Source of the DNA: Bacteriovorax stolpii
Lineage (GTDB): Bacteria; Bdellovibrionota; Bacteriovoracia; Bacteriovoracales; Bacteriovoracaceae
Reading direction: 5' to 3'
Length of the DNA stretch: 51,108 nt
Assembly: GCA_945860895.1 (NCBI GenBank)
Contig: CAMASK010000012.1
Span: forward strand, 1 to 51,108
The translations under genes and the position numbers were made by a program. Below, piece by piece: positions 5,132-20,573 of this stretch. The stretch's first letter is position 1; every line of letters starts with the position of its first letter. The notes under the pieces are model-generated. The model saw only the letters and a program-made list of their open reading frames with translations. It was not told the origin of the DNA and made no database searches.

Positions 5132-6466
5132 TTTATCCGTTTTCAACTTTTCTAAATGTTTTTGGATATTCTTTCTGGCATAAGGCCAAAGTCTTTGATC
5201 AACCTGGGAATAAATCTTTTCCAGCATTTGTTCTTCTGACAAACCTTCCTGATGCAGCTTTAGTATTTGTATTTCCCGCATGCGTCTATGTTCTAAAGTG
5301 CTCTGAAGAATATTCACTCCTCCCAGGCCTATGCCGTGAGATGGAAAAAGTACCCGTGGATTAAGTGAGATGACTTTTTGAAGGGTATCAAAGTACTTCG
5401 CCATATCTCCTTCATCATCACCAATCACAACCGTACCAACACCCTGAAAAAGATCTCCCGCAATAAACCAGCTCATATCTTCTGATGCCAGAGCAATCTG
5501 ACCTTCATCATGACCAGGGATAGAATAGACGATAACATTTCGTCCTAACCATTTAGTAACGACATCCCCTTCTTTTAACAAATGAACTTCTACATTTTCA
5601 AAATAACCAGGAATTTTAGCGCTAAGACGAGTATGAGTATCACGACTCATTTGCATGGGAACATTAAATTCTTTGGCCAATTTTACAGAATGTTCATGGT
5701 GATCAGGATGATGATGCGTGAGGAGAACTTTATCCAGGCCAAAAAGTTTTATGGTATTCACTAATTTTCGGTATTCTTCAGCATCTTTAGGAGATGGGTC
5801 CAGTATAATTTTCGGTCCATTGTCCCCGATTAGAAAGGCATTGGTACGAGTGGCCGGAGGAAGAGTATTTGAAAGAGGCATGAGCTGTCGAATTGATTTA
5901 AGGGATTCAATCATCGGCACATGATTATCTTTATCATAATCAAAATTTAGATTCTCAATTGATCTTACGTCCGGATTTTGGCCCAGAGTTTCGATGACTT
6001 TAATCACCGGAGGAACGGCCAGAATATGCCCATCATGATATTGCTTTAAAAGATCATAGGAACTTATCCACTTGGCAATTTTGGCTTCGTTTCGATCAAT
6101 GATAAATTCACATTTCTCTTTTAGTTGAAACCGATAAAAATGAGTCGCAAATCGAAAAGGATTAAAGTCCGGAGTTACTGCCAGCCCCAGATAATCAATT
6201 CGTTCAACATTGCCGCGAAGAATTTCCAAAGAGAGATCAACTCCGAGTTCTTCTTTTCCTTCACGAAAGGCTGCACCTAGTAATCTCGCCTCTATCCCTT
6301 GAGTGATTGGGTGCTGAAGAGAGAGCTGATCGTCACTAACTTCAACTTTTCCGCCAGGAAAAGCCCAGTAACCTGGAAATGCCTTGAGAAAGTTTTGGCG
6401 CTGAATAGCGAAGATCTCATTTTGGCAAGTTATCACGATGGAAACAGCATCGATGATCTTACTCAT
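5123..6466 (-). CDS. Nudix hydrolase / metallo-beta-lactamase fold fusion protein
   Basis: This 447-residue protein has two enzyme domains. Residues 1-170 form a Nudix domain with a split box: G39 then, after an insertion of about 15 residues, R68-E69-G70-K71-E72-E73-L74-G75. That layout and the RFATHFYRF segment resemble the NUDT19/RP2 subgroup, which hydrolyses CoA-type diphosphates. Residues 200-447 form an MBL domain with HHHPDHH at 251-257 (HxHxDH), PGHDEG, AGDLF and FPSHG, a complete di-metal set like LACTB2, followed by a helical C-terminal tail. Its ATG overlaps the stop of the upstream 2-oxoacid oxidoreductase gene (ATGA), so they form an operon. I infer a role in CoA-thioester or nucleotide housekeeping for that pathway; the substrate is not known. 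Confidence 0.85.
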   Translation of the reverse strand: MSKIIDAVSIVITCQNEIFAIQRQNFLKAFPGYWAFPGGKVEVSDDQLSLQHPITQGIEARLLGAAFREGKEELGVDLSLEILRGNVERIDYLGLAVTPDFNPFRFATHFYRFQLKEKCEFIIDRNEAKIAKWISSYDLLKQYHDGHILAVPPVIKVIETLGQNPDVRSIENLNFDYDKDNHVPMIESLKSIRQLMPLSNTLPPATRTNAFLIGDNGPKIILDPSPKDAEEYRKLVNTIKLFGLDKVLLTHHHPDHHEHSVKLAKEFNVPMQMSRDTHTRLSAKIPGYFENVEVHLLKEGDVVTKWLGRNVIVYSIPGHDEGQIALASEDMSWFIAGDLFQGVGTVVIGDDEGDMAKYFDTLQKVISLNPRVLFPSHGIGLGGVNILQSTLEHRRMREIQILKLHQEGLSEEQMLEKIYSQVDQRLWPYARKNIQKHLEKLKTDKLI

Positions 6467-9400
6467 ATCTTGCCTTCAAGATATTTTGCAGCGGATTTAT
6501 AACGATATTGTCGGTAACCTTTTACGGAGTCTAATTTTTTTAGTTCAATCAGGGTTAAAGCAGAGAACAGTTTTTTTCTGATTTCAAAAGATATTTTGCG
6601 CTCTTCCTTATGCCATTCAGGCATGAGTTTTCTTAGAATACGCAAATGCCTCATGATTTTAAGCATCCAGGGTCTTGGAGAGAAATCAAATTCAATCTTT
6701 TTGCCCATAAGTTCAAAAGCTGGTCGATTGATGTGGATGACTTTATAGGAAGAACCCATCTCTTTATATTTCGTTTCATCCAGCTTTAGTTTAATTGGTG
6801 AAATCATGAGATGAGAAACAAACACTTCGTCTTTAATCCAGAAAGTTTTGGCCAAGGTCCTAAGGGCGATGGCGAGAGCTTCTTGTTGATAAAATTTCTT
6901 CAGATCAATCGCAGCCTGATAAAAAGCAGGAAGACTTATTCCCTGATCAAAAACAATCAAGTCATGAACATATTGAGCTAAATGGCTTCGAGGAATGTCA
7001 GGAAATTGTTCAGCCATGAGTTTCGTGTAACTCGTATGAGTATCTTTGAATCGTTGGTTTGACTGCCAAGGGAAAGCGGCCATGCCAGCACTTTCGTTTA
7101 TGAGAGCAAGTTCTTCGGCATAATCATGAAAAGAAGCAACCTGAGTTTGGTTTTGCTCTTGTAAGTACCAATCTCTCCCCATCATGAAAGCTTCTAAATT
7201 AGGAGACAATTCAGACTTCGGTACTGCTGCTTTCAATGCATTGATTAAATCTTCTAAGGAGAAAGGAAGCTTCCCCGCTTGAAAAGCAATTCCTAGCACC
7301 ATAGTTGATGAATATACAGGGCGCTGAAAGCGCTCAAAACACATTTTCTTCATTGGTGCCATAATCAAGCGCGATCCAAGTTTTTCTTTTAGTTCTTTCT
7401 GAATCGCTTCAGGCGTAACCACTTCATGATCAATTCCACGATCTAAGAGAATAGATAAAGGCACTTGATATTCTGAATCTACAATTAAGATTCCATTGGC
7501 AGATAAAAATTCAATGGCCCGAGATCCTTCTAATAAGTCCGGAGAAAGAACCATATCAGCTGAAGCAAGTGGAACTACCTGTCCCTGTGATTTACCTTTT
7601 TGATAAATACTTAAATGACTTGTAACTGAACCATTTCTTTGGGCCAAGCCTTTTTGATCGACAAATTTAAAATCGAGATCCTCTCTCCCACCCATTTCAG
7701 AAGCGGCTTCTGCAATAACCCGTGAGATAGTTGTCACACCAGAGCCACCTACGCCGATAACAATGGCCCTAAAATCTTTACCTTCAGCAATCGTCTGAAG
7801 ATTTTTTTGTGAAACTGGAAGTGGAAGATTCCACTCTTTATTAGACTGGATCTCCTTACGATATTTTGTAGGATGGTAATCAGCCACTTGAACCAATTCA
7901 AAACTTGGGCAAGCCTTAATCTTGGTGCAATAAGAATCGGATACGCAAATTTGCGGATCAATCATGACTTTTGTGCCGTAAGCATCGTTAGTTTGTGAAA
8001 GTCCCGGACATCCGGTCATGTCCACACAGGCACGGCAATCTTCACAGGCAAGAGTGTTGATTTGATAAAACTCTCGTAATTTTTCGGTCTGCCCACTTGA
8101 GAATAGCTTTCGATCATCGCGTTTTTTTCGACCATGAAAAGTTAGTCCACATTCTTTGTTGGACACAACCACTTTGACACCTGGACGCTGAATCATCTCA
8201 AGTAAAAGATTCTTATAGAAATATCGATCACTCGGATTTACTTCAATGGCTTCTGATACCTGCAGTGATTTTGCAACATCCAGCATATTTTGACGAGGAC
8301 GTATCGTACCTTCAACCGAAACACCTGTTCTCGGAGTTACCTGATGCCCAGTCATGGCCGTATTATCGTTATCTAAAAGAACGTAGGTAATGTTGTGGTT
8401 CATTTGGACGGAATTTGAAATCGATACCATGCCAGAATGGAAGAAAGTTGAATCTCCCATTAATACCACTGAAGGATTGGTAGTAAATAAATCCGTCCCG
8501 GCCCCCAATGACCCACCCTGACCCATTGCCGAGAGATCGTGCATTTCCTTGAAGGGCTCAAGAAAGGACAATGAATAACAACCGACATCCCCATGGGAAA
8601 TTAATTGCACATCTTTATCGGCAAGATTCGAACGAATCTCTTTCATGATACTGAGAGTCTCCCGGTGCGGACACCCCGGACAAAAAGTCGGAAGACGTCG
8701 TGGCAATAAGAGATCCATCTTTTGAGATACTGGCAGAGAATTAAAACAAACCTCTCCGTTTTTTTTCCAGTTCAAAAGATCCATGGCATTGTTTAAATTC
8801 TTATAAATAATTTCGTAGTTCAAACCACCATGGGCCGGAAAACCTTCCATAAAACCATGATCAGTTTTAAATTCTTTTCCAAAAACCGGAACGCTTAAAG
8901 AAAACTTGTTCAGTACTTCTTTTATTTCACTTTCAAGGAATCCACGTTTTTCCTCAACCACAATAAGATTTTTAATAGATTTCAAAAATGGCAGAAGTCT
9001 GGCTTCGTTGAATGGATAGGTGGTGGCGGCTTTATAGAGCTTCACTTCATTAATCAGATCCGACTCTTCCAGAACTTGCTTTAGTGTTTCAAAAACTGCT
9101 CCGGTTGAAATAATTCCTAACTCAGAAGTTTCCTTCCCGAAAATCTCATCTAAATTTAATTCAGCTAAAATGTTTTTGATCTTAGGAAAACGATTAAGAA
9201 TCATTTCTTTATCGGCCAGAAGTGAATTAGGTGGCACCATTACGTGTTTTGAAAGATTGAATTCACTCGGATCAAGAGTGACGAGTTCATTACTTAAAAC
9301 TTTCTCTTCCCCCATTTCAACTCGTCCACCACCTTCGGCCATGAATGTAGTTAGGAGAACGCCGGTATAAACTGAACTTTTTTGAGAGAGCTCCAAGGCC

Positions 9401-9855
9401 CGAGCCATCCAGTCTTTCAATTCTTGTGGAGTTGAAGGTTCAAGAAATGGCATGTGGAGATGTTTGAATAAATATCGTGAATCAGCTGGAGTTGAAGTTG
9501 AAATGGACCAGGGATCATCTCCCACGGCCACCACGACTCCTGAAAGTCCATTACCGGGATTAGCAAAATTTCCTACTGACAATGCATCGGAAGCAACATG
9601 CAGTCCCATGGATTTCATCGCCACTAAAACATTTTTGCCAGCCATCTTTGCACCAGAAGCCATAGCGGCAGCATTGGCCTCAGAATTAGCAATAACAACT
9701 CGAATACCTTTTTTGTGTAAGGCTTCCTTTTCTTCATAAAGAATATTAAAAAAATCTGCCAAGGGAGATCCTGGATAACCAGTATACAAGTGAAACCCTG
9801 CTTCCAGGGCACCTTGAATTAAGAGTTCATTTCCATTAAGTATCTTATGGCCCAT
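6463..9855 (-). CDS. Fused indolepyruvate-type 2-oxoacid:ferredoxin oxidoreductase (IorA-IorB fusion)
   Basis: This protein of about 1130 residues joins all parts of the enzyme. The order is a pyrimidine-binding N-domain (GNELLIQGALEAG, TGYPGSP), the CPGCPHR motif near 392, a TPP domain with GDVGCY, MGDSTFF near 466 and NDNTAMTGH near 496-504, a cysteine-rich cluster at about 604-650 (CEDCRAC...CPG and CVSDSYC...CP), an IorB/gamma domain from about 696 (IGVGGSGVTTISRV), and a C-terminal domain typical of the long proteobacterial type. The family converts indolepyruvate or phenylpyruvate plus CoA to aryl-acetyl-CoA, CO2 and reduced ferredoxin. I chose ATG 9855 because MGHKILNGNELL matches the family start. 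An in-frame TTG at 9918 would add 21 residues, and an AAGGAGGAG lies between the two, so the start is not certain. It probably feeds phenylacetyl-CoA to the paa-like genes. Confidence 0.9.
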   Translation of the reverse strand: MGHKILNGNELLIQGALEAGFHLYTGYPGSPLADFFNILYEEKEALHKKGIRVVIANSEANAAAMASGAKMAGKNVLVAMKSMGLHVASDALSVGNFANPGNGLSGVVVAVGDDPWSISTSTPADSRYLFKHLHMPFLEPSTPQELKDWMARALELSQKSSVYTGVLLTTFMAEGGGRVEMGEEKVLSNELVTLDPSEFNLSKHVMVPPNSLLADKEMILNRFPKIKNILAELNLDEIFGKETSELGIISTGAVFETLKQVLEESDLINEVKLYKAATTYPFNEARLLPFLKSIKNLIVVEEKRGFLESEIKEVLNKFSLSVPVFGKEFKTDHGFMEGFPAHGGLNYEIIYKNLNNAMDLLNWKKNGEVCFNSLPVSQKMDLLLPRRLPTFCPGCPHRETLSIMKEIRSNLADKDVQLISHGDVGCYSLSFLEPFKEMHDLSAMGQGGSLGAGTDLFTTNPSVVLMGDSTFFHSGMVSISNSVQMNHNITYVLLDNDNTAMTGHQVTPRTGVSVEGTIRPRQNMLDVAKSLQVSEAIEVNPSDRYFYKNLLLEMIQRPGVKVVVSNKECGLTFHGRKKRDDRKLFSSGQTEKLREFYQINTLACEDCRACVDMTGCPGLSQTNDAYGTKVMIDPQICVSDSYCTKIKACPSFELVQVADYHPTKYRKEIQSNKEWNLPLPVSQKNLQTIAEGKDFRAIVIGVGGSGVTTISRVIAEAASEMGGREDLDFKFVDQKGLAQRNGSVTSHLSIYQKGKSQGQVVPLASADMVLSPDLLEGSRAIEFLSANGILIVDSEYQVPLSILLDRGIDHEVVTPEAIQKELKEKLGSRLIMAPMKKMCFERFQRPVYSSTMVLGIAFQAGKLPFSLEDLINALKAAVPKSELSPNLEAFMMGRDWYLQEQNQTQVASFHDYAEELALINESAGMAAFPWQSNQRFKDTHTSYTKLMAEQFPDIPRSHLAQYVHDLIVFDQGISLPAFYQAAIDLKKFYQQEALAIALRTLAKTFWIKDEVFVSHLMISPIKLKLDETKYKEMGSSYKVIHINRPAFELMGKKIEFDFSPRPWMLKIMRHLRILRKLMPEWHKEERKISFEIRKKLFSALTLIELKKLDSVKGYRQYRYKSAAKYLEGKI

Positions 9856-9940
9856 CGTTCTATCCCATCTGTTGATCTTTTGGTTATACTCCTCCTTGAT
9901 CGTATGATCAATTATCAAAAAGTAATATCAAGGACTTAAT

Positions 9941-11683: not shown

Positions 11684-11701
11684 GTTAAGACTGTGTTAAG
11701 A
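11684..11701 (+). promoter_or_regulatory. Candidate Pho-box-like direct repeat upstream of pstS
   Basis: TTAAGA occurs at 11685-11690 and again at 11696-11701, an 11-bp period, which is the spacing of PhoB/PhoP recognition repeats. It lies about 65 nt before pstS in the 235-nt gap after hpd. The match is to spacing and AT-rich character, not to the exact E. coli CTGTCAT sequence. A TATTAT element near 11734 could serve as the -10. Confidence 0.35.
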
Positions 11702-11765: not shown

Positions 11766-12623
11766 ATGCACACGCTTCTTTTACTATTTTTAGTATTACT
11801 AGGTTGTACCAAACACGAGAACGTTTTGATTATTCAAAATAAAGGCTCTGATACTTTAGTAAACCTCGCTCAGGCGTGGGCAGAAGAATATAAAAAGGTT
11901 AATCCCAAAGTTGCCATTGCTGTTTCTGGCGGTGGTTCAGGAACTGGAATCGCGGCTCTTATCAACGGTACTGTGGATATTGCAAATTCTTCAAGGGCCA
12001 TGAAACCTGAAGAGAAAGAGGAAGCTCTCAAAAATAATGGTAAGCCTGTTAAGGAGTTTATCGTTGGAATGGATGCATTAGCAGTATTTGTTCATCCGGA
12101 AAATCCTTTGAACGGAATGAGTCTGGAAGAAATCGCCTGCATTTACGGTGAAGGCGGAAAATGTGTTCTTTGGAGTGACATCAGAGGAACAGTGGTTCCT
12201 GGCTGTCAGGGTAATAAAATTATCCGCGTTTCACGTCAGTCTAACTCAGGGACGTATCAATATTTTCGTGAAGCTGTTCTGGGTAAGAAAAAAGACTTAA
12301 AACTTGGTTCAATGGATCTTAGTGGTTCAAGAGAATCAATTGATCTGGTTGAGAAAACTCCCTGTGCTATTGGTTACTCAGGAATGGGATATTTATCAAA
12401 ACACGTAAAAGCATTATGTGTTCAAAAAACTTCCGATTCAACTTGTATCCCTCCAAATCTTATAACGGCGCTGGATAAGTCTTATCCAATTGCTAGAGAG
12501 CTTTATATGTACACTTCCGGTGAACCTTCTCAGGAAGTTAAAAATTATATGGACTGGACTCAGAGCGAATTAGCTTCCAAAATTACCATCGGTGCAGGCT
12601 ATGTTCCTGCGCCAAAAAAGTAG
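11766..12623 (+). CDS. pstS: Phosphate ABC transporter substrate-binding lipoprotein PstS
   Basis: This 285-residue protein has a lipoprotein signal peptide with lipobox LLGC near residue 14, so it is anchored on the periplasmic side of a membrane. Family motifs include KGSDTL, SGGGSGTGIAALINGTVDIA, SSRAM and RQSNSGTYQYF, which form the phosphate-binding cleft. AAGGAC precedes the ATG. It is the first gene of pstS-pstC-pstA-pstB-pstB. No phoU, phoB or phoR is visible nearby. Confidence 0.94.
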   Translation: MHTLLLLFLVLLGCTKHENVLIIQNKGSDTLVNLAQAWAEEYKKVNPKVAIAVSGGGSGTGIAALINGTVDIANSSRAMKPEEKEEALKNNGKPVKEFIVGMDALAVFVHPENPLNGMSLEEIACIYGEGGKCVLWSDIRGTVVPGCQGNKIIRVSRQSNSGTYQYFREAVLGKKKDLKLGSMDLSGSRESIDLVEKTPCAIGYSGMGYLSKHVKALCVQKTSDSTCIPPNLITALDKSYPIARELYMYTSGEPSQEVKNYMDWTQSELASKITIGAGYVPAPKK

Positions 12624-12627
12624 AGCC

Positions 12628-13560
12628 ATGGAAATGAAAATTACAGAAACAAAACCATTGAGCATGGAATGGCGACATAAGAAGAGCAGTAAGCCAAAAT
12701 CTGAAAAGATTATTGAATCCATAATTAAAGTTGGTGGCTTTAGCTCTATTGTCCTGATCATCGCCATTTTATTTTTCATTGTGAAAGAATCAGCTCCTTT
12801 TCTGATAAGTCGTTTTGATTTCAATGAATTCTTTCTATCTACTCAATGGAATCCTGCTTCCGTGGTGGAAGTTAAATACGGTGTTCTTGCTCTTTTGGTG
12901 GGAACTCTGATGGTGACCTTCATATCAATGTTAATTGCAGTTCCCTTGGGACTGGCATGTGCCTTCTATATCTCTGAATTTTGCTCTCCTCAATTACGAG
13001 AAATCTATAAAATCCTGATTGAATTTTTAGCGGCGATTCCTTCAGTGGTTTGGGGCTTTATTGCCATCATGATGATTAACCCACTTATCATTCATACCTT
13101 TGATGTTCCCGTAGGATTGAATATTTTAAATGCTTCTATCATTCTTGCACTTATGTCTTTGCCCCTGATTGTATCCATTGGTGAAGATGCCTTAAGAGCT
13201 GTGCCTGAAACTTATCGTGAAGCTGCAGAAGGAATGGGAGCAACAAAGTGGGAAGTTGCCACAAGAGTTCTATTACCAGCTGCTAAAAATGGTTTGATGG
13301 CGGCTGCATTATTAGGGGTTGGTCGTGCACTGGGTGAAACCATGGCCGTCCTTATGGCCACAGGACATGCCATTCAAATTCCAAGTAGCATTTTTGAACC
13401 AGGCCGAACTTTAACAGCAACTATTGCTGCTGAACTTGGCGAATCTCCGAAGGGCGGAGAGCACTATCAAGCCTTGTTCGCTATTGGTCTTGCCCTATTT
13501 ATCCTCTCTTTCATTGTAAATCTTTCAGCTGATTATTTGATCCGCGGGAGAAAAAAATAA
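12628..13560 (+). CDS. pstC: Phosphate ABC transporter permease PstC
   Basis: This is an inner-membrane permease of about 310 residues. After a charged N-terminus there is a first transmembrane helix (IVLIIAILFFIV), followed by five more. The cytoplasmic EAA loop that contacts the ATPase is EAAEGMGATKWEVATRVLLP. I chose ATG 12628 because a longer frame would run 32 nt back into pstS; ATG 12634 is also possible. Only 4 nt separate it from pstS. It pairs with PstA to form the channel. Confidence 0.93.
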   Translation: MEMKITETKPLSMEWRHKKSSKPKSEKIIESIIKVGGFSSIVLIIAILFFIVKESAPFLISRFDFNEFFLSTQWNPASVVEVKYGVLALLVGTLMVTFISMLIAVPLGLACAFYISEFCSPQLREIYKILIEFLAAIPSVVWGFIAIMMINPLIIHTFDVPVGLNILNASIILALMSLPLIVSIGEDALRAVPETYREAAEGMGATKWEVATRVLLPAAKNGLMAAALLGVGRALGETMAVLMATGHAIQIPSSIFEPGRTLTATIAAELGESPKGGEHYQALFAIGLALFILSFIVNLSADYLIRGRKK

Positions 13561-14429
13561 TGTTTAAACCAAGTATTCACCTCCTCAATAAAGAAATCCG
13601 CGAAAAGAATTTTAAGAATCTTCTTAGCATGATTACTTTCTTTTTATTTTTGCCGGCCTTAGGAATTATCTTCTGGCTTTTTATTAAAGGTTACCCTGCT
13701 CTTAGCTGGGACTTCTTGTTAAATGATCCAATTAAAGGCATGACTGCCGGTGGAATTTTTCCAACGATCGTTGGAACTTTCTGGTTAGTGATCATCAGCG
13801 TTTTAGTTTCTTGTCCTTTGGGAGTATTGGCCGCTCTGTATTTATCAGAGTATGCAAAAGAAGGCACATTAACCCGAATTATTCGCCTCGCGATTCTAAA
13901 TCTAGCGGGAGTTCCAAGTATTGTTCATGCTCTATTTGGATTAGGTGCATTTGTACTATTCATGAAGATGGGAACGAGTATTTTGGCAGCTTCCTTTACC
14001 CTTGCTGTGATGAATCTACCAGTTATCATCACCTCTACACTTGAGTCTTTAAAAGCAGTACCTCAATCGTATCGTGAAGCTTCATGGAACGTTGGTGCCA
14101 GTAAATTGCAAACCATTCGTCATATCGTTCTTCCTAACTCTTTACCGGGAATTTTAACTGGAATTGTGTTCGCAGTGGGACGCTCTGCCGGTGAAACAGC
14201 GGCAATTCTTTTTACAGGTGTTGCCTTCTATCTTCCATTTTTACCTCAAACTGTCTTTGATCAATGTATGTCATTATCAATGCACTTATTTACGATCTCT
14301 ACACAAGTGGTTGGAGTGCCGGATGCCTATCCATACGCCACGGCTTTAGTCTTAATTCTTCTCATTCTTTCTGTTAACTCCATTGCGGTTGTTTTAAGAA
14401 CCTACTTCCGTACTAAAAGGAAGTGGTAA
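13560..14429 (+). CDS. pstA: Phosphate ABC transporter permease PstA
   Basis: This 289-residue six-helix permease starts at the last base of the pstC stop (TAATG). The ATPase-contact loop is present (REASWNVGASKLQTIRHIVL), as is the conserved GRSAGETAAILFTG helix near the C-terminus. Length is normal for PstA. The two permeases are distinct, so each may dock a different one of the two ATPases encoded downstream. Confidence 0.93.
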   Translation: MFKPSIHLLNKEIREKNFKNLLSMITFFLFLPALGIIFWLFIKGYPALSWDFLLNDPIKGMTAGGIFPTIVGTFWLVIISVLVSCPLGVLAALYLSEYAKEGTLTRIIRLAILNLAGVPSIVHALFGLGAFVLFMKMGTSILAASFTLAVMNLPVIITSTLESLKAVPQSYREASWNVGASKLQTIRHIVLPNSLPGILTGIVFAVGRSAGETAAILFTGVAFYLPFLPQTVFDQCMSLSMHLFTISTQVVGVPDAYPYATALVLILLILSVNSIAVVLRTYFRTKRKW

Positions 14430-14430
14430 G

Positions 14431-15186
14431 ATGAACAAGAAAATCGAAATAAAAAATCTTAAAGTTTTTTATGGCAAAAAAAATGTCATCAAAAATTTAA
14501 ACTTAGATATTTATACCAATGAAGTACTAGCGATCATCGGTCCTGCAAACTCTGGAAAGAGTTCACTTTTAAGGTGCTTAAACCGCATGACTGATTTTAA
14601 TAATGAAGTCAGAGTTGAAGGCGATGTTTTATTAGATGGTCAAAGTATTTACGAAGATGATGATTCCACTTTTTTACGTCGCAGAGTTGGAATGGTTTCT
14701 CCACTTCCTGTTGGTCTACCAATGAGTATTAAAGAAAACGTAACCTTCGCTCCTCGCATGGCCGGATGTACAGATAAAGCTGAACTTGATTTCATTATGG
14801 AAGATTGTCTAAAAAAAGCCGCTTTATGGGATGAAGTAAAAGACCGCTTGAATGGTCTTGCAACCAAACTTTCCGGTGGTCAACAGCAACGTTTAACTAT
14901 TGCGCGAGCTTTATCCCATCATCCTGAAGTCTTGTGCCTGGATGAATTTTCGATTGCCATTGATCCGGTAACGACCATGAAAATTGAAGCAGTTCTGCAT
15001 GAATTAAAAAAAGATCTGACTGTCGTCATGGTCACAAACGTCATCAATCAGGCCAAACGTCTGGGAGATAGAACGGCCATGATGTTGAATGGTGAGATTC
15101 TGGATTTAGATGAGAATCAAAAACTATTTAACGGTGTAATTAAAGATTCAAGAACTAAAGATTATATCGAAGGTTTATTCGGGTAA
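14431..15186 (+). CDS. pstB: PstB-type ATPase, first copy: intact LSGGQ, altered Q-loop and H-loop
   Basis: This 251-residue ATPase begins 2 nt after pstA. Walker A GPANSGKS (37-44) is kept, the ABC signature LSGGQ (147-151) is perfect, and Walker B ends LCLDE (168-172). However, the Q-loop normally reading VGMVFQ is VGMVSP (Q replaced by P91), the switch histidine is N203 (VTN for VTH), and the D-loop is SIAIDP rather than SALDP. By ABC transporter mechanism, its own nucleotide pocket should hydrolyse poorly, while its signature can complete the partner's pocket. The next gene encodes the complementary partner. Confidence 0.92.
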   Translation: MNKKIEIKNLKVFYGKKNVIKNLNLDIYTNEVLAIIGPANSGKSSLLRCLNRMTDFNNEVRVEGDVLLDGQSIYEDDDSTFLRRRVGMVSPLPVGLPMSIKENVTFAPRMAGCTDKAELDFIMEDCLKKAALWDEVKDRLNGLATKLSGGQQQRLTIARALSHHPEVLCLDEFSIAIDPVTTMKIEAVLHELKKDLTVVMVTNVINQAKRLGDRTAMMLNGEILDLDENQKLFNGVIKDSRTKDYIEGLFG

Positions 15187-15189
15187 AAT

Positions 15190-15951
15190 ATGAGAAACCA
15201 TGTAGTAAATACGAACGAATTTAGTTTTTGGTATGGTGACTTTCAAGCGTTGAAAGATTTAACTTTCAATATTTCTGCTTTTAAAATTACTGCACTTATC
15301 GGGCCAAGTGGTTGTGGAAAAAGTACTTTTTTAAAATGCCTGAACAGAATCAATGAACGCAGTGGCGTAGTTTCTCATGATGGAAGTATTCAGGTATTTG
15401 GTCATGATATTTATCACCCAACAGTTGCTCTCTCTGAGTTAAGAAGACAAGTTGGAATGGTTTTTCAAAAACCAAATCCTCTTCCCCTCTCAATTTATGA
15501 GAACGTAATCTTTGGCGCCAGAACTCACATGCGCAAAGTAACTAATAAACAGCTTGATGAAATGGTTGAGAGTTCACTGAAACGAGTTGGCCTGTGGGAA
15601 GATTTAAAAGATCAATTGAACCGTTCAGCACTCACTTTGAGTTTAGAAAAACAGCAGCGACTTTGTATTGCTCGCCTTCTTCCTTTGAAGCCAAAACTTT
15701 TACTTTTAGATGAGCCATGTTCAGCCCTTGACCCTGCAGGAATTGAGGCCATTGAAACGCTCATTAAAGATCTAAAAAAAGATTATTCAATTCTTATCGT
15801 GACTCATTCCATGAGTCAGGCGAAACGTGTTTCAGATGAAACCATCTTCATGTACATGGGTGAGCTGGTTGAAATGAGTGACACTAAAACACTTTTCGAA
15901 AACCCTCAAGAAGCACGTACGGCCGCTTATATTGAAGGGCGCTTCGGTTGA
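15190..15951 (+). CDS. pstB: PstB-type ATPase, second copy: intact Walker/Q/H motifs, degenerate signature
   Basis: This 253-residue ATPase starts 3 nt after the first copy. It has Walker A GPSGCGKST (38-46), Q-loop VGMVFQ with Q93, Walker B LLLLDE ending at E175, D-loop SALDP (178-182) and switch H206. All match canonical PstB. The signature, normally LSGGQQQRL, is LSLEKQQRL (150-158), so both glycines and the glutamine are lost although the flanks (QQRLCIAR) are unchanged. Alone, a homodimer should not form a working ATP sandwich. With the upstream copy it gives one fully canonical site. It is the last gene of the operon and is followed by a good terminator. Confidence 0.92.
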   Translation: MRNHVVNTNEFSFWYGDFQALKDLTFNISAFKITALIGPSGCGKSTFLKCLNRINERSGVVSHDGSIQVFGHDIYHPTVALSELRRQVGMVFQKPNPLPLSIYENVIFGARTHMRKVTNKQLDEMVESSLKRVGLWEDLKDQLNRSALTLSLEKQQRLCIARLLPLKPKLLLLDEPCSALDPAGIEAIETLIKDLKKDYSILIVTHSMSQAKRVSDETIFMYMGELVEMSDTKTLFENPQEARTAAYIEGRFG

Positions 15952-16018
15952 TAGTTCACTAAATATCTGACTCAATCAGCACAAAATCATTTAAATGAAA
16001 GAACTGAAGATTATTCGT

Positions 16019-16050
16019 GGGGAAATATGCCTATTTATTTCCCCTTATTT
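16019..16050 (+). terminator. Intrinsic terminator of the pst operon
   Basis: GGGGAAATA (16019-16027) pairs perfectly with TATTTCCCC (16036-16044) around an 8-nt loop, followed by TTATTT. It sits 68 nt after the last pst gene and directly before the next promoter. Confidence 0.75.
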
Positions 16051-16079
16051 TGACATCTCCCCCTCTCTCTCGTTATGTT
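16050..16079 (+). promoter_or_regulatory. Sigma-70-type promoter of the phenylacetate-like operon
   Basis: A perfect -35 TTGACA (16050-16055) is followed after 18 nt by TATGTT (16074-16079), four of six matches to the -10 consensus. The first gene starts at 16119, leaving a leader of about 30 nt. The pyrimidine-rich spacer is unusual. Confidence 0.55.
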
Positions 16080-16118
16080 TATCCCATCTATTTCAAACTC
16101 TTGACGCGCGAGGCAAAA

Positions 16119-16439
16119 ATGTACAAAGTAATCGCAGTTTATCGTGTTCCAACTGATGAAGCGGCTAAGGCCAAATTTGAAGATCATTATAAAAATGTTC
16201 ACACTCCAATCTGTTTGAAAATTCCTGGAATTAAAGAACTTCGTACTAACAAAATTTTTGGTGGTCCAACAGGTGCTTCGAATCTTTCAATGGTTGCAGA
16301 AATGTGTTTTGAAAATAAAGATTCATGGAAAGCGGCGATGAAAACTCCGGAAATGATGGAGTCTGGAAAAGACGCCATGAAATTTGCTGGTGATTTAGTT
16401 TCAGTTCATTTCGCTGAAGAAATTATTGTAAAAGCCTAA
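16119..16439 (+). CDS. EthD-domain (ferredoxin-like fold) small protein
   Basis: This 106-residue protein starts MYKVIAVYRVPTDEAAKAKF and continues with the FEDHYKNVHTPICLKIPGIK motif typical of the EthD family of dimeric alpha/beta-barrel proteins. EthD-like proteins accompany oxygenases and aromatic or ether degradation; the exact chemistry is unknown for most. I chose ATG 16119 (GAGG site 7 nt upstream) over an upstream in-frame ATG at 16022 or earlier, which would lie in the terminator and promoter. Its stop overlaps the start of the hydratase gene (TAATG). Confidence 0.8.
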   Translation: MYKVIAVYRVPTDEAAKAKFEDHYKNVHTPICLKIPGIKELRTNKIFGGPTGASNLSMVAEMCFENKDSWKAAMKTPEMMESGKDAMKFAGDLVSVHFAEEIIVKA

Positions 16440-17227
16440 TGAAAACTTTTGAAAACATTTTAGTTACCAAAAATTTTCAAAACCATCCTCATATTGCCTT
16501 GATTCAATTGAATCGCCCGAAGGTGCTGAACGCTCTTTCAACTGATCTTATGCGAGATGTGGTTGAGGCAATGTTCACATTGGAAGATGATAAAGATGTA
16601 CGGGTAATTATTCTTACAGGAAATGATCGCGCTTTCGCAGCTGGTGCCGACATCGGGCAAATGGCCGAAGCCTCTCCTATTGATCAAATTAACGACAATC
16701 GCTTCCGTACCTGGAAGCAGCTTTCACTCATGACTAAACCAATAATTGCAGCTGTCAACGGATTCGCTCTGGGTGGTGGTTGTGAACTCGCTATGAGCTG
16801 TGATTTTATTATCGCCGGTGATTCAGCGAGATTTGGTCAGCCGGAAATTAAAATCGGAACCATTCCCGGTGCAGGTGGTACTCAGCGCCTGACTCGTGCG
16901 ATTGGAAAATCCAAGGCGATGCTCGCTGTTTTAACTGGTGAGATGATGGATGCCTATGAAGCTGAGAAATCAGGCTTAGTGGCAAAAGTTGTTCCGAGTG
17001 AAACTCTGATGCAGGAAACTTTTGAAATCGCGAAAGTGATTTCAAATCGTGCCCCTGTTGCCGTGAAACTTGCTAAAGAAGCTGTTAACATGGCATTTGA
17101 AAGTTCACTCAAAGACGGCATGGAATATGAAAGAAGAAATTTCTATCTGACTTTTTCATCAAAAGATCAAAAAGAAGGTATGAAAGCCTTCATGGAAAAA
17201 AGAGAGCCTAAGTATGAAGGTAATTAA
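16439..17227 (+). CDS. Enoyl-CoA hydratase (PaaF/crotonase type)
   Basis: This 262-residue crotonase has both catalytic glutamates in context: GGGCELAMSCDF and GQPEIKIGTIPGAGGTQRL. The oxyanion-hole segment is AFAAGADIGQM. Enoyl-CoA hydratases add water to 2-enoyl-CoA in beta-oxidation. In a phenylacetyl-CoA pathway this step is PaaF, acting on 2,3-dehydroadipyl-CoA. The sequence also resembles general short-chain crotonase, so PaaF is inferred from context. Its 3' end overlaps the lipoprotein gene by 14 nt. Confidence 0.9.
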   Translation: MKTFENILVTKNFQNHPHIALIQLNRPKVLNALSTDLMRDVVEAMFTLEDDKDVRVIILTGNDRAFAAGADIGQMAEASPIDQINDNRFRTWKQLSLMTKPIIAAVNGFALGGGCELAMSCDFIIAGDSARFGQPEIKIGTIPGAGGTQRLTRAIGKSKAMLAVLTGEMMDAYEAEKSGLVAKVVPSETLMQETFEIAKVISNRAPVAVKLAKEAVNMAFESSLKDGMEYERRNFYLTFSSKDQKEGMKAFMEKREPKYEGN

Positions 17228-17570
17228 TCTTCTGTTTTTTTTGGGGGCCTGTGCGACTCCACAACAAAAGTATGATCCAATTACGACACCTCTGGCTTTG
17301 AAGCAAGATGAATTTCGTTCATGTTATTTAGAAAGTGATTCTTATCTAGGGAGAAATAAAGTTGAAGTGGGTAAGATCAGTCTCGCCTTCACTATTACTA
17401 AAATCGGCAAAGTTAAAAATGCCAAAGTGGCCAGTTCAGAATTTAAAGATGCTAATTTACATGCTTGTCTTTTAGATCAATTAAGAAGAATCGAATTTCC
17501 TGCACCAAAAGACGGAAAGGATTTGGAAACTGTTCGATTCATCAACATTTACCCAAGTACAAATTCATGA
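17214..17570 (+). CDS. Small lipoprotein with AgmX/TonB-C-like domain
   Basis: This 118-residue protein has an N-terminal lipoprotein signal (FFLGAC, Cys13). The rest follows the pattern of the AgmX/PglI and TonB C-terminal fold: KISLAFTITKIGKVKNAKVA, then SEFKDANLHACLLDQLRRIEF with a proline after. Such domains are common in delta-type bacteria on cell-envelope proteins. It overlaps the hydratase by 14 nt and the isomerase by 4 nt (ATGA), so translation is tightly coupled to cytoplasmic CoA enzymes, which is unexpected for a periplasmic or outer-membrane lipoprotein. A role in uptake, or chance insertion into the operon, are both possible. Confidence 0.8.
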   Translation: MKVINLLFFLGACATPQQKYDPITTPLALKQDEFRSCYLESDSYLGRNKVEVGKISLAFTITKIGKVKNAKVASSEFKDANLHACLLDQLRRIEFPAPKDGKDLETVRFINIYPSTNS

Positions 17571-18355
17571 AAACTTTTGAAACGATCAAATTTGAAATAA
17601 AAAACATGACGGCGATCATTACCATCAATCGTCCGCAAGTCTACAATGCTCTCAATATTCAGGGGAAACTGGACATCATTTCTGCTATTCGTGAGGCCAA
17701 TAAAGATACTAACGTAAGATCAATTGTTCTTGCTGCAGAAGGAAAAGCTTTTTGTTCCGGTCAGGATTTAAACGACCGCACCGTTGATGCTACTCAAGGT
17801 CCGGTAGATATTGGTCATACACTTGAAACCGAGTGGAACCCTCTGATCGAAGCGATTAAGGGATCGGATAAACTCATCATTGCTGCTATCCAGGGTGTAT
17901 GTGCCGGAGCAGGATTATCAGTTGCCTTAGCCGCGGATATGAAAATTGCTGCTCCTGGAGTGCGTTTTATCTCCGGCTTTAGCCAGATTGGTCTGGCCCC
18001 TGATGCTGGAATGAGTTTTATGCTAGTTAGACAATTGGGCTACACAAAAGCTTTGGAATTCGCGCTCTTAGGTAAGCCTCTTCTCTCAGAGGATATGCTC
18101 GGGTATAATTTCATCAATCGTATCGCTGAGAATCCACTCGAGACGGCATTAGATTTGGCAGGGGAAATCAATAATTTGGCACCCCTATCAGTAAAAATGG
18201 TTAAGAAGAATTTTCAATATGCTAACGAAAAAGAACTGGGTGAGGTATTAAATCGTGAAAAATATGTTCAACGGTTTTTAGGCTTCTCTCAGGACTATAA
18301 AGAAGGCGTAAGTGCTTTCATGGAAAAAAGAAAACCACAATTTAAAGGTCAGTAG
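17567..18355 (+). CDS. paaG: PaaG-like 1,2-epoxyphenylacetyl-CoA isomerase / crotonase
   Basis: This 262-residue crotonase family member has the PaaG-like FCSGQDLNDR oxyanion segment and SQIGLAPDAGMSFML, where the aspartate replaces the second glutamate of hydratases, as in PaaG. PaaG turns the ring-1,2-epoxide of phenylacetyl-CoA into the oxepin-CoA. I start it at ATG 17567, inside the lipoprotein stop. An upstream ATG in frame at 17465 would lie within the lipoprotein gene and adds no family sequence. It is followed 13 nt later by the PaaA-like gene with an AGGAG site. Confidence 0.85.
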   Translation: MKTFETIKFEIKNMTAIITINRPQVYNALNIQGKLDIISAIREANKDTNVRSIVLAAEGKAFCSGQDLNDRTVDATQGPVDIGHTLETEWNPLIEAIKGSDKLIIAAIQGVCAGAGLSVALAADMKIAAPGVRFISGFSQIGLAPDAGMSFMLVRQLGYTKALEFALLGKPLLSEDMLGYNFINRIAENPLETALDLAGEINNLAPLSVKMVKKNFQYANEKELGEVLNREKYVQRFLGFSQDYKEGVSAFMEKRKPQFKGQ

Positions 18356-18368
18356 CTAGGAGATATAC

Positions 18369-19187
18369 ATGCGCGCTTATACTAATGAAGATTTAAAACT
18401 GTTTGATGACATAAAAAATGGCAAGACGTTTGATGCTAATTCAGACATGCCAGAGATTTACCGTAAAAATCTCTTAAACCTCCTCTGGATGCAGGCAGAT
18501 TCTGAATATGCCGGTGGACTGGGTTATATGCCTTGGATTGCCAAAGCTCCAAATGCACACGAGAGAGTTCTAGTGGCCCAGATTGTAAAAGATGAAATGC
18601 GCCACGCTCATGTTATTTATAAAATCCTGGATGATTTGGGTGAGAAAACACACGATCACATGCTTAAGCATGAATTTGACTGGAGAATTCCTCAGGATAC
18701 TGCCAACATCGGTTTCTCTCGTGCCAAACAAGATAAGCGAGTAAATATATTTTACTACCAGATCACTCATTGGGAAGATTTCTGTTTATTTAACTTCCTT
18801 ATGGACCGTGCTGCTGGACACGTCCTTGAAGACACTTTGAATTCATCATTTCTTCCTTGGAAAAATGCCATTGGAACAATTTGCAAAGAAGAATCTATGC
18901 ACCTTGCTCATGGGGACAAAACAGTTAAGGCCATGTGCGAAGATCCTGAAAAAAGAAAATTTCTTCAAGAGCGTCTAAATTTATGGTGGCCTCGAGTGAT
19001 GAACACTTTCGGAAAATCAACCGGTAATGGAAATGACATCTATCAAAAACTTGGTCTTAAAAACCGTTCAAACGCAGACGTTCGTGATGCTTTCGTGAAA
19101 GAGATTACAGAGAAATGTGCCGAGTGGGGATTAAAAGTTCCTGAATATAAGGAAACAGAACAGCCGCTTGAATATACCTTTTCTTAA
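18369..19187 (+). CDS. PaaA-like di-iron phenylacetyl-CoA epoxidase family protein
   Basis: This 272-residue helical protein is related to PaaA, the catalytic subunit of phenylacetyl-CoA 1,2-epoxidase, and more distantly to BoxB. Candidate di-iron ligands are E46, E76-x2-H79 (KDEMRHA), an acidic residue in the third helix (D137 or D146), and E175-x2-H178 (CKEESMH). The C-terminal part (NLWWPRVMNTFG) matches PaaA's RWWWPSLMMFG. It is somewhat shorter than E. coli PaaA (about 309). In the known complex PaaA needs PaaC for structure, PaaE for electrons, and PaaB; none of these is in this window. It could act alone, or its partners could be encoded elsewhere. Confidence 0.82.
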   Translation: MRAYTNEDLKLFDDIKNGKTFDANSDMPEIYRKNLLNLLWMQADSEYAGGLGYMPWIAKAPNAHERVLVAQIVKDEMRHAHVIYKILDDLGEKTHDHMLKHEFDWRIPQDTANIGFSRAKQDKRVNIFYYQITHWEDFCLFNFLMDRAAGHVLEDTLNSSFLPWKNAIGTICKEESMHLAHGDKTVKAMCEDPEKRKFLQERLNLWWPRVMNTFGKSTGNGNDIYQKLGLKNRSNADVRDAFVKEITEKCAEWGLKVPEYKETEQPLEYTFS

Positions 19188-19189
19188 AC

Positions 19190-20053
19190 ATGAATTTACA
19201 AAGAATAGTTGTCATCGGTGCTGGAACCATGGGTTCTGGCATCGCTCAGTGGTTCGCTCAACAGATGTGCTATGTAGAGTTAGTAGATAATTCCGAAGCT
19301 CAGTTAAAAAAAGCACTTACCGATATTCACGCATCCTGGGACAAACTGGTAGAAAAAGAAAAGCTCACAAGCTGCCAGGTAATCCAGATGAAAAAGTTGT
19401 TAGAAACAAAATCCTTGAGGAAAGTTTCTAAAGATTCTGACCTTGTCATTGAAGCCATCATTGAAAATCTTGAAATTAAAAGATCACTCTTTCAGGAGTT
19501 GGATCAATATTTTTCTTCCAAAACAATCCTCGCCTCTAATACTTCAAGCTTTCCTATTGGATTAATCGCTGAGGCTGTATCAGTTGAAAGGAAAAAGCGC
19601 TTTATCGGTCTGCATTTTTTTAATCCGGCCACTATTATGAAATTAGTGGAGATAATTAAGGCAACAGAAACAGAAGCTTCTTTATGTGATGCCCTCTATG
19701 AGTGGTTTGATTCCAAAGAGAAAAAACCAGCTTTAAGTAAAGACTCTCCCGGCTTCATTGTGAACCGTGTGGCACGTAATTTTTATGGAGAGCCCCTACG
19801 AATCGCAGAAAGAGATGATGAAGAGAGGATGAAGGAAATTGATCGGGTGCTGAAGGAAGTTGGCGGCTTTAAAATGGGTCCTTTTGAGCTTATGGATTTG
19901 ATTGGTATTGATATAAACTACTCAGTGACCTGCTCGGTTTGGGAAGCCTATAAGCAAGAACCTCGCTTTGCTCCTCACAAGCTTCAAAAACAGATGGTAG
20001 ATGAAAAACGATTTGGTCGTAAAACCAAACGAGGGTTTTATAAATATGACTAA
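19190..20053 (+). CDS. 3-hydroxyacyl-CoA dehydrogenase, N-terminal NAD domain plus first C-domain (PaaH N-half)
   Basis: This 287-residue protein has the NAD motif GAGTMGSGIAQ at 10-20, the LHFFNPATIMKLVEII segment with the catalytic His region, and DSPGFIVNRVARNFYGE opening the first dimerisation domain, ending RGFYKYD. It is complete by 3-hydroxybutyryl-CoA dehydrogenase standards, but the next gene supplies the second C-domain that PaaH proteins carry in one chain. It starts 2 nt after the PaaA-like gene. PaaH oxidises 3-hydroxyadipyl-CoA to 3-oxoadipyl-CoA. Confidence 0.9.
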   Translation: MNLQRIVVIGAGTMGSGIAQWFAQQMCYVELVDNSEAQLKKALTDIHASWDKLVEKEKLTSCQVIQMKKLLETKSLRKVSKDSDLVIEAIIENLEIKRSLFQELDQYFSSKTILASNTSSFPIGLIAEAVSVERKKRFIGLHFFNPATIMKLVEIIKATETEASLCDALYEWFDSKEKKPALSKDSPGFIVNRVARNFYGEPLRIAERDDEERMKEIDRVLKEVGGFKMGPFELMDLIGIDINYSVTCSVWEAYKQEPRFAPHKLQKQMVDEKRFGRKTKRGFYKYD

Positions 20054-20573
20054 TGTAAAATTTAAAAACCTTCTCATCAATTTTGGATTCGGAACAAAGG
20101 CTGAGAAAATCCAGCTTCTAAAGGCCAATCCCGATAAAGAAATTTACATGGATCTGACTTGCTACGATCCTGGTGAATTTTACTTTCAATATCCACAGCT
20201 GAAAGGCTGTTTTGCTGCCCTCTTTTGCGATGCCGAAAAAAAGGTAGAAGTTCACCTGAGAGAAAGAAGCGAAGACTTCTTCAAAAAAATGAAAGAGCTG
20301 GGTTTCAGACCTGTTGAGACTTCCATCATTTCTTGTGGTTTTATTTTTCCCCGAACGATTGTTCAAATTATCAATGAGGCTCATTTTGCTCTGGAAGAAG
20401 AAGTGGCTTCAAAGAAAGACATTGATCGGGCCATGAAGTATGGAGTCAATTATCCCAAAGGCCCGTTCGAATGGTCTAAAGGTCGTGAACTTTATGTGCT
20501 CACCCTTTTACAAGAACTCTTTAATAAAACTCAGGATAAACGTTACTTGAGTTCCCGACTAATTCTACCTTGA
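20046..20573 (+). CDS. Stand-alone second C-terminal domain of a PaaH-like dehydrogenase
   Basis: These 175 residues match the last third of PaaH: a variable linker-like N-part, then FPRTIVQIINEAHFALEEEV, KDIDRAMKYGVNYPKGPFEW and a final helix ending RYLSSRLI. The gene overlaps the N-half by 8 nt in the +1 frame. A GAGGG about 12 nt before ATG 20046 supports separate initiation, so I read this as a natural gene split with coupled translation. A one-base sequencing or real frameshift is the alternative. I chose ATG 20046 over the upstream in-frame ATG at 20001, which would extend into the N-half. Confidence 0.8.
   Translation: MTNVKFKNLLINFGFGTKAEKIQLLKANPDKEIYMDLTCYDPGEFYFQYPQLKGCFAALFCDAEKKVEVHLRERSEDFFKKMKELGFRPVETSIISCGFIFPRTIVQIINEAHFALEEEVASKKDIDRAMKYGVNYPKGPFEWSKGRELYVLTLLQELFNKTQDKRYLSSRLILP

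Follow-up and report, generated by a model that had tools for sequence, protein, structure and literature searches.

The window analysed here, a 51,108-nucleotide stretch of Bacteriovorax stolpii DNA (assembly GCA_945860895.1, contig CAMASK010000012.1), carries a phosphate-specific transport (Pst) operon with two adjacent pstB genes, whose products, B1 and B2, have lost complementary sets of the motifs that make up an ATP site. The textbook importer for phosphate at high affinity, Pst is regarded as a machine built on a PstB homodimer. We propose that here an obligate B1/B2 heterodimer very probably drives a phosphate importer in which one ATP site is canonical and the other degenerate. By their motifs, neither B1 nor B2 would be expected to make an ordinary active homodimer, and a heterodimer with one canonical site, as the original prediction had it, is the reading best supported by the split itself, the pairing of the genes, their mirrored trees, the lack of a rescuing PstB and the existence of a second class of split pair. 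The sites of an ATP-binding cassette (ABC) dimer are composite, each consisting of the Walker A, Walker B, Q-loop Gln and switch His of one chain and the signature of the other (PMC7756269, cited, like the papers below, from an excerpt), and it is because of this that a B1/B2 dimer would hold one site of each kind.

Translation of the window and alignment with E. coli PstB (sequence from L252; L and G numbers are our handles for loci and genomes) bore out the open reading frames and all residue numbers of the original prediction, as well as the split that it described. B1 keeps LSGGQ and loses the Q-loop Gln and the switch His, and B2 keeps Q93, E175 and H206 and loses LSGGQ, which reads LSLEK (Table 1); the changed positions are Q98, H210 and LSGGQ 154-158 of the E. 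coli protein. The predicted canonical site stands; the claim that every element of the other site is altered does not, as B1 has an intact Walker A and an intact Walker B Glu. TIGR00972, the PstB equivalog, is the best NCBIfam match for both proteins, and both score under its curated cut-off of 343.2 bits, while PstS, PstC and PstA of the window each score above theirs.

The split is invariant in a set of 169 stretches (28 from the family Bacteriovoracaceae, 80 best relatives, 60 from phylum surveys and the window), aligned together with E. coli PstB after removal of identical proteins. All 151 distinct B1 proteins have Pro in place of the Q-loop Gln, Asn at the switch, an intact signature and an intact Walker B Asp-Glu; in the rows tallied they also retain the Lys of Walker A. 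All 145 distinct B2 proteins have an L-x-L-E or L-x-L-D signature (66 LQLEQ, 31 LSLEE, 26 LSLEK, 10 LSLEQ and 12 others) and keep the Gln, the Walker B Asp-Glu and the His. This B2 set is a bin of 147 from which two canonical bystanders (L108, L150) were dropped, and 25 proteins binned separately, for the most part third ATPases of Poribacteria and contig-end pieces, were left out. Complementary loss that leaves one canonical composite site, the pattern of degenerate-site heterodimeric ABC proteins, is thus found throughout, and neither chain alone holds all the ATPase motifs, as a PstB-type protein does. Within the family the split is identical in 28/28 B1 and 28/28 B2 read, window included, so that the changes are neither missing from close relatives nor a product of sequencing error; with the invariance above and a ratio of nonsynonymous to synonymous substitution rates (dN/dS) of ~0.04, this also rules out a pseudogene or drift.

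Pairing, spread and history of the split genes

A six-frame search of the window's genome (2.79 Mb in 129 contigs, 94.6% complete) with the PstB model gave 45 matches and no third PstB, the next best match having 156 bits against 328 and 292 for the pair. No other canonical pstB that might serve the permease, which would have spoken against the original prediction, was therefore found in this search; one could still lie in the missing few per cent. PstC passes its cut-off once in this genome, and PhoU does not pass at all (one match of 20 bits against a cut-off of 130, which 12 of 14 control genomes pass).

A complete tandem pair is present in 27 of the 129 genomes of the family, comprising 21 of the 26 genomes of the window's own genus (the window's genome counted) and six in four other genera (g43, g21, g25 and g32). 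The single-contig genome G104 is among the carriers, and G084 and G099 hold one half of a pair at a contig end. The pair and a canonical PstB are mutually exclusive in this family, because the 48 genomes with a PstB over the TIGR00972 cut-off include not one of the 27 that carry the pair; the 30 over-cut-off genes that were read have canonical motifs. The B2 profile had no match at 1e-50 in the pair-less genomes G080, G091, G094 and G114, which are 82-87% complete. Further PstB-like ATPases, divergent yet intact in their motifs, are encoded in some family genomes close to permease-like genes that can be aligned with PstC and PstA (L084, L086-L090).

Paired pstB genes with the same split are found well beyond the family, in about ten phyla, and a quirk of one genus is ruled out by the loci and phylum samples from such distant groups. 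Named GTDB contigs were scanned with the B1 alignment and the best 80 of 524 relatives, ranked by similarity to B1, were taken. Each of the 80 contains a B1 bearing PLPVGLP and VTN, and a B2 follows in 77, the stretch stopping at a contig end in the other three (L098, L118, L123). As labelled in their records (nearly all are metagenome-assembled genomes, and some labels may be wrong), these loci belong to Bacteriovoracaceae, Verrucomicrobiota, Gemmatimonadota, Acidobacteriota, Poribacteria, Eisenbacteria, Myxococcota, other 'Deltaproteobacteria', Desulfobacteraceae, Gammaproteobacteria, Binatota and Chitinispirillaceae; the pair also sits on two Poribacteria chromosomes (L169, L172). For the phylum surveys we used a profile (A3) of 29 diverse B1 sequences, with which B1-type genes score at least 390 bits and the best non-B1 gene 286 bits (in the Bdellovibrionota sample and 34 genomes from named loci). 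Of the 290 Bdellovibrionota sampled, 22 have B1-type genes; at a threshold of 1e-95, such genes were found in 6 of 288, 29 of 297, 65 of 84 and 24 of 349 genomes of the phyla of a verrucomicrobial, an acidobacterial, a poribacterial and a gammaproteobacterial locus, respectively, each count including the centring genome and up to two more known beforehand. Plasmids were rejected as carriers: 117 plasmid records match B1, all at less than 60% identity and the best among the matches listed at 49.6% (25 of the 117 rows were inspected and the motifs of one record, L252, read).

At 159 of 168 B1 loci, some of which are the same gene fetched twice, the pst gene that follows B1 on its strand is B2, which lies no more than 300 bases away at 157; at L132 and L146 the two genes are 1355 and 716 bases apart, with possible room for another gene. 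Eight of the nine loci with no next-door B2 are contig ends, and the ninth, L210, breaks the rule that B1 always adjoins B2, its next gene being phosphatase-like by our reading and its B2 lying on another contig. PstS, PstC and PstA genes stand upstream at 154 of the 168 loci, the 14 loci with no PstS having at most about 3,000 bases upstream within the stretch. A PhoU gene is on the same strand at 100 loci and on the other strand only at two. Among the 297 Acidobacteriota, 28 of the 29 genomes with a B1-type gene also have a B2-type gene (at least 424 bits) and none has B2 alone; the sole B1-only genome, G757, has its B1 at a contig end. Five genomes (four of Pseudomonadota and one acidobacterial) with two B1 genes have two B2 each (L206/L211 in G1083, L201/L270 in G1099, L204 in G1135, L199 in G1159 and L212/L216 in G883), two of the ten being cut at contig ends. 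Tandem pstB genes are not always split, as both copies have canonical motifs at L271 and at L272.

The 34 pair genomes from named loci were searched for further PstB-like genes at 1e-55: 22 have a separate one elsewhere, three (Poribacteria) have an extra one just downstream and nine have only the pair. The separate gene was read in 8 of the 22 and is canonical each time (L108, L150, L268, L272-L276). At L132, L133, L162, L164, L165, L169-L172 and in most Poribacteria stretches, a permease, a third PstB-like ATPase and PhoU lie downstream of B1-B2, and a downstream set of this type was counted at 22 loci. The third ATPase has the switch VTNKRRQA or ATNKRRQA, often a replaced Q-loop Gln, and a signature such as LSTGQ or LSIGQ; to judge by these motifs the set is a second, differently degenerate half-system.

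A second class of split pair came to light when the B2 profile was applied to the same 297 Acidobacteriota, in which a lower group of 19 genomes has a best match of 352-370 bits. We read nine of these (L255-L263) together with five stretches at 328-350 bits (L264-L268). The five lower-scoring stretches are all canonical, and all nine of the others carry a pair, B1' and B2', in which B1' has its Gln replaced by Ala (8) or Ser (1) and its switch His by Asn, with LSGGQ intact, and B2' has LSLEQ (5), LTGEQ (2), LSPEQ (1) or LSLEE (1) with the Gln and His intact. These residues differ from those of the first class, and therefore the split has been kept with other residues; LTGEQ and LSPEQ have the look of intermediates between LSGGQ and LxLEQ. 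When TIGR00972 was run on nine further proteins, only B2' of L255 (363.6 bits) and the canonical control of L261 (385.8 bits) exceeded 343.2.

In a quick, unrooted tree of 111 proteins, made with the Q-loop, signature and switch columns removed and with support from the Shimodaira-Hasegawa-like approximate likelihood ratio test (SH-aLRT) only, B1 forms one clade (100) and B2 another (97), with B2' outside the latter. The same five locus groups recur as subclades in the B1 and B2 halves, some against taxonomy (in both halves L079, a pair from the window's family, groups with pairs of gammaproteobacterial and gemmatimonad origin), a pattern that speaks for transfer of the pair as a unit. Over 29 pairs, B1 and B2 distances correlate with r = 0.78, a value that 0 of 5000 permutations attained. 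A reduced tree of 99 of the 111 rows, likewise unrooted and with the most divergent rows dropped (canonD, Bx, outgroup, L262_b1p), places B1 and B1' on one side of a branch (99) and B2 and B2' on one side of another (97), and a single clade of all pair proteins is not rejected (approximately unbiased test, p 0.61). One duplication followed by complementary loss would be the simplest history, the root not being fixed. Both genes are under strong purifying selection: the median dN/dS within the genus is 0.043 for B1 and 0.039 for B2, beside 0.033 for pstA, 0.042 for pstC and 0.073 for pstS, with synonymous sites near saturation and a finite dS in only 47-107 of 210-231 comparisons.

Predicted permease contact, predicted mechanism and alternatives

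A pair-specific change in PstA lends support to the suggestion, made in the original prediction, that each ATPase may have a fixed permease partner. The coupling helix of an ABC importer lies next to the Q-loop of its nucleotide-binding domain (NBD). The corresponding segment of PstA in pair systems, which we take to be the coupling helix by homology to EAA loops, reads REA[CS]WN. Of the 159 distinct PstA-like rows from pair loci, 148 have this Trp (142 of them W-N; the window is possibly counted twice), and the 11 rows that lack it are nine of the extra Poribacteria permease, one of another operon in L108 and one true exception, L199 (L-N). Canonical PstA, by comparison, has the Trp in 0 of 45 distinct rows, many of them from the window's family, and alignment of pair and canonical PstC revealed no pair-specific coupling-helix change. 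Because the Q-loop of B1 is rebuilt, the coupling helix sits by the Q-loop and PstA alone is changed, the simplest reading would be that B1 docks on PstA. Second-class PstA has Ser one position on in 9 of 10 rows (the tenth is the L261 bystander), as do 4 of 45 canonical rows.

From these elements we can outline a mechanism in which the five genes would yield one importer, made of PstS, the PstC/PstA permease and the B1/B2 heterodimer, with B1 most likely on PstA and B2 on PstC. On closure of the NBDs the Walker A, Q-loop, Walker B Glu and switch His of B2 would face the LSGGQ of B1 and complete a canonical, hydrolysing site. The degenerate site would set the intact Walker A and Walker B of B1, with its Pro Q-loop and Asn switch, opposite the L-x-L-E signature of B2. 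ATP may well bind there, since B1 has lost neither its Walker A nor its Walker B Glu, and the site probably binds ATP or stays closed as a pivot, with poor or no hydrolysis. Hydrolysis would be expected at the canonical site only, and one ATP per cycle is possible. A more ambitious account, in which one ancient pstB duplication and complementary decay produced a class of importer that spends one ATP instead of two per cycle, docks B1 on PstA and B2 on PstC, spread as five genes over about ten phyla and replaced canonical Pst in part of the Bacteriovoracaceae, is offered tentatively, as we rate its chances at somewhat below even.

Several observations weigh against the proposed heterodimer or parts of it. 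The loci and genomes were picked by similarity to B1, the seeds being its Walker A and signature, and the invariance is partly a result of this selection; the Q-loop and switch of B1, and B2, did not serve as seeds. With the B1 profile, B1' scores like a canonical PstB, so that the surveys undercount split pairs and leave room for half-split ones. Mirrored trees and adjacency are also expected from inheritance in one operon without contact, and relatedness alone gives a correlation of distances. The PstA change may reflect shared ancestry instead of contact, and the Trp is absent from PstA of the second class (0 of 10 rows). With Walker A and the Walker B Glu of B1 intact, some hydrolysis at the second site is possible. 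PhoU, the usual partner of Pst, is missing by profile search from the window's genome, 94.6% complete as it is, and in the 22 of 34 genomes with a separate PstB-like gene the pair may have another role than canonical Pst.

Rather than sharing sites, the two ATPases could form two homodimers, B2/B2 (or B1/B1) powering the transporter and the other acting in regulation or sensing, for example in place of PhoU signalling. The missing PhoU of the window's genome would fit, as would the tandem pstB genes of E. faecalis, of which one is needed for uptake and the other is accessory (PMC12096839); the E. faecalis copies, however, both keep all four motifs examined there, whereas here the signature would be missing from both sites of a B2 homodimer, as would the Gln and His from both sites of a B1 homodimer. 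That B1 and B2 are paired 1:1 fits shared sites, and PhoU stands beside the pair at 100 of 168 loci, so that the pair is not a general replacement for it; we regard the two-homodimer arrangement as quite improbable. About the same low probability attaches to a heterodimer that hydrolyses at both sites, the second doing so with its retained Walker B Glu and an unusual signature, and the changes tuning only rate or coupling. The Walker B Asp-Glu is indeed intact in 151/151 B1, the rows tallied still have the Walker A Lys and the catalytic Glu is retained, unlike in many exporters, but the Gln, the His and the GG of the opposing signature have all changed together. The Glu of the B2 signature presumably sits where a Gly contacts the gamma-phosphate, which also counts against hydrolysis there. 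So does the degenerate site of Pdr5, whose signature LNVEQ is close to the LxLEQ found here (PMC7756269).

That one pstB copy is merely decaying into a pseudogene under relaxed constraint might be suggested by the scores of B1 and B2, both below the curated cut-off, but this is scarcely credible with a dN/dS of ~0.04 in both genes, like that of the permeases, and with the degenerate residues themselves fixed across phyla. The least improbable of the alternatives, unlikely as it still is, has the pair importing another oxyanion, or phosphate in another affinity range, beside an ordinary Pst. It draws on the separate PstB-like gene of 22 of 34 pair genomes outside the family, canonical in 8/8 read; pointing the other way are the PstS, PstC and PstA families, the PhoU neighbours, the lack of another PstB in the window's genome and the finding that none of the 27 family genomes with the pair is among the 48 with an over-cut-off PstB. 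Phosphate import by a B1/B2 heterodimer with one canonical site thus remains the reading that we prefer.

Operon and surroundings

The five genes form a tight operon on the + strand of the window in the order pstS-pstC-pstA-pstB1-pstB2 (Table 1). For pstC we chose the ATG at 12628 over the listed GTG at 12592, with which the gene would overlap pstS.

Table 1. Genes, motifs and other features of the pst operon, in window coordinates
Feature	Position	Strand	Basis
pstS, phosphate-binding protein	11766..12623	+	TIGR02136, 209.2 bits (cut-off 206.6)
pstC, permease	about 12628..13560	+	TIGR02138, 287.7 bits (cut-off 196.45)
pstA, permease	13560..14429	+	TIGR00974, 256.1 bits (cut-off 193.45)
pstB1, NBD with intact LSGGQ, degenerate Q-loop and switch	14431..15186	+	TIGR00972, 292.2 bits
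pstB2, NBD with intact Walker A, Q, Walker B and His, degenerate signature	15190..15951	+	TIGR00972, 328.5 bits
B1 Walker A, GPANSGKS, residues 37-44, Lys kept	14539..14562	+	window translation, family alignment
B1 Q-loop, VGMVSPLPVGLP, Gln replaced by Pro91	14686..14721	+	Pro in 151/151 distinct B1
B1 signature, LSGGQ, residues 147-151, intact	14869..14883	+	LSGGQ in 150/151, ISGGQ in 1/151
B1 Walker B, Asp171-Glu172, intact, inside DEFSIAIDP	14941..14946	+	DE in 151/151
B1 switch, Asn203 in place of His	15037..15039	+	Asn in 151/151
B2 Walker A, GPSGCGKS, residues 38-45, intact	15301..15324	+	window translation, family alignment
B2 Q-loop, Gln93, intact	15466..15468	+	Gln in 145/145 distinct B2
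B2 degenerate signature, LSLEK, residues 150-154	15637..15651	+	L-x-L-E/D in 145/145 distinct B2
B2 Walker B, Glu175, intact	15712..15714	+	alignment with E. coli PstB
B2 switch, His206, intact	15805..15807	+	alignment with E. coli PstB
PstA cytoplasmic region, presumed coupling helix, REASWNVGASKLQTIRHIVLP, with pair-specific W-N	14073..14135	+	Trp in 148/159 pair rows, 0/45 canonical
Direct repeat upstream of pstS, GTTAAGACTGTGTTAAG, 11-base period, Pho-box-like candidate	11684..11700	+	exact match to GTTAAGNNTNNGTTAAG

The candidate repeat is the sole exact match to GTTAAGNNTNNGTTAAG in the window, and with up to two mismatches there are 2 matches against 1.53 expected by chance. Among the 26 family loci with upstream sequence, TTAA-N7-TTAA lies no more than 120 bases before the matched pstS start in 25 and GTTAAG-N5-GTTAAG precedes pstS in 20. 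We infer that a PhoB-type regulator may bind this Pho-box-like repeat, and the repeat and the Pst families together suggest control by phosphate starvation. Around the operon we read, by eye, a fused indolepyruvate ferredoxin oxidoreductase-like gene on the 5' side (6463-9918) and phenylacetate-degradation-like genes on the 3' side (16017-20573; enoyl-CoA hydratases, PaaA-like, hydroxyacyl-CoA dehydrogenase).

Related transporters and what the pair means

Canonical PstSCAB of E. coli (PDB 9k3x, 9k3y and 9k3s, in which the PstB chain resembles the E. coli PstB of L252) consists of the same binding, permease and ATPase families in the order S-C-A-B. It has one pstB with all motifs and two equivalent sites, whereas the window's genome has two non-equivalent ATPases and, by profile search, no PhoU. 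The tandem pstB genes of Firmicutes, PstBA/PstBB of B. subtilis and PstB1/PstB2 of E. faecalis, are likewise adjacent in a pst operon, and the B. subtilis pair has been modelled as a heterodimer (PMC11466899). The E. faecalis copies have unequal roles and both keep Walker A, Walker B, LSGGQ and the H-loop (PMC12096839), so the window's pair shares the adjacency of this type but not its intact motifs. According to that paper, nothing had been published for any microbe on how much each of two tandem pstB paralogues contributes.

There is a close likeness to the asymmetric exporters (TAP, BmrCD, TM287/288, CFTR, MRP1 and Pdr5), which also have one canonical and one degenerate site by complementary changes, the degenerate Pdr5 signature LNVEQ resembling the LQLEQ and LSLEK of the pair (PMC7756269). 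The pair differs from them in belonging to an importer, in having separate NBD subunits, in keeping the catalytic Glu and Walker A and in losing the Q-loop Gln. Importers with one degenerate ATP site have been described in RbsA and NupO, but these are type II importers with the NBDs fused in one chain, and it is the second Walker A Lys that is lost in both and the Walker B acids in NupO (PMC11466899). The original prediction knew of no described phosphate importer with the split, and we too found no description of one in the open-access literature searched, often in its top results only. The asymmetric peptide importers Opp and Dpp are possible further precedents. On these, the passage from PMC12136057 names a motif comparison only. 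As far as that literature goes, a split known from exporters is seemingly new in phosphate uptake.

For the proteins tried, NCBIfam has no model for either half, just PstB, under whose cut-off they mostly fall, and surveys that count pstB genes therefore miss the class. The pair is a genuine, ancient and widely distributed form of the Pst importer, firmly established at the level of genes; the assembly, site chemistry, stoichiometry and substrate proposed here are predictions from its sequences. The series LSGGQ, LTGEQ or LSPEQ, LSLEQ and LQLEQ offers natural intermediates. A natural class with one canonical site, found across phyla, makes it testable how much ATP a type I importer needs per substrate, and what purpose a degenerate site has in a simple importer.

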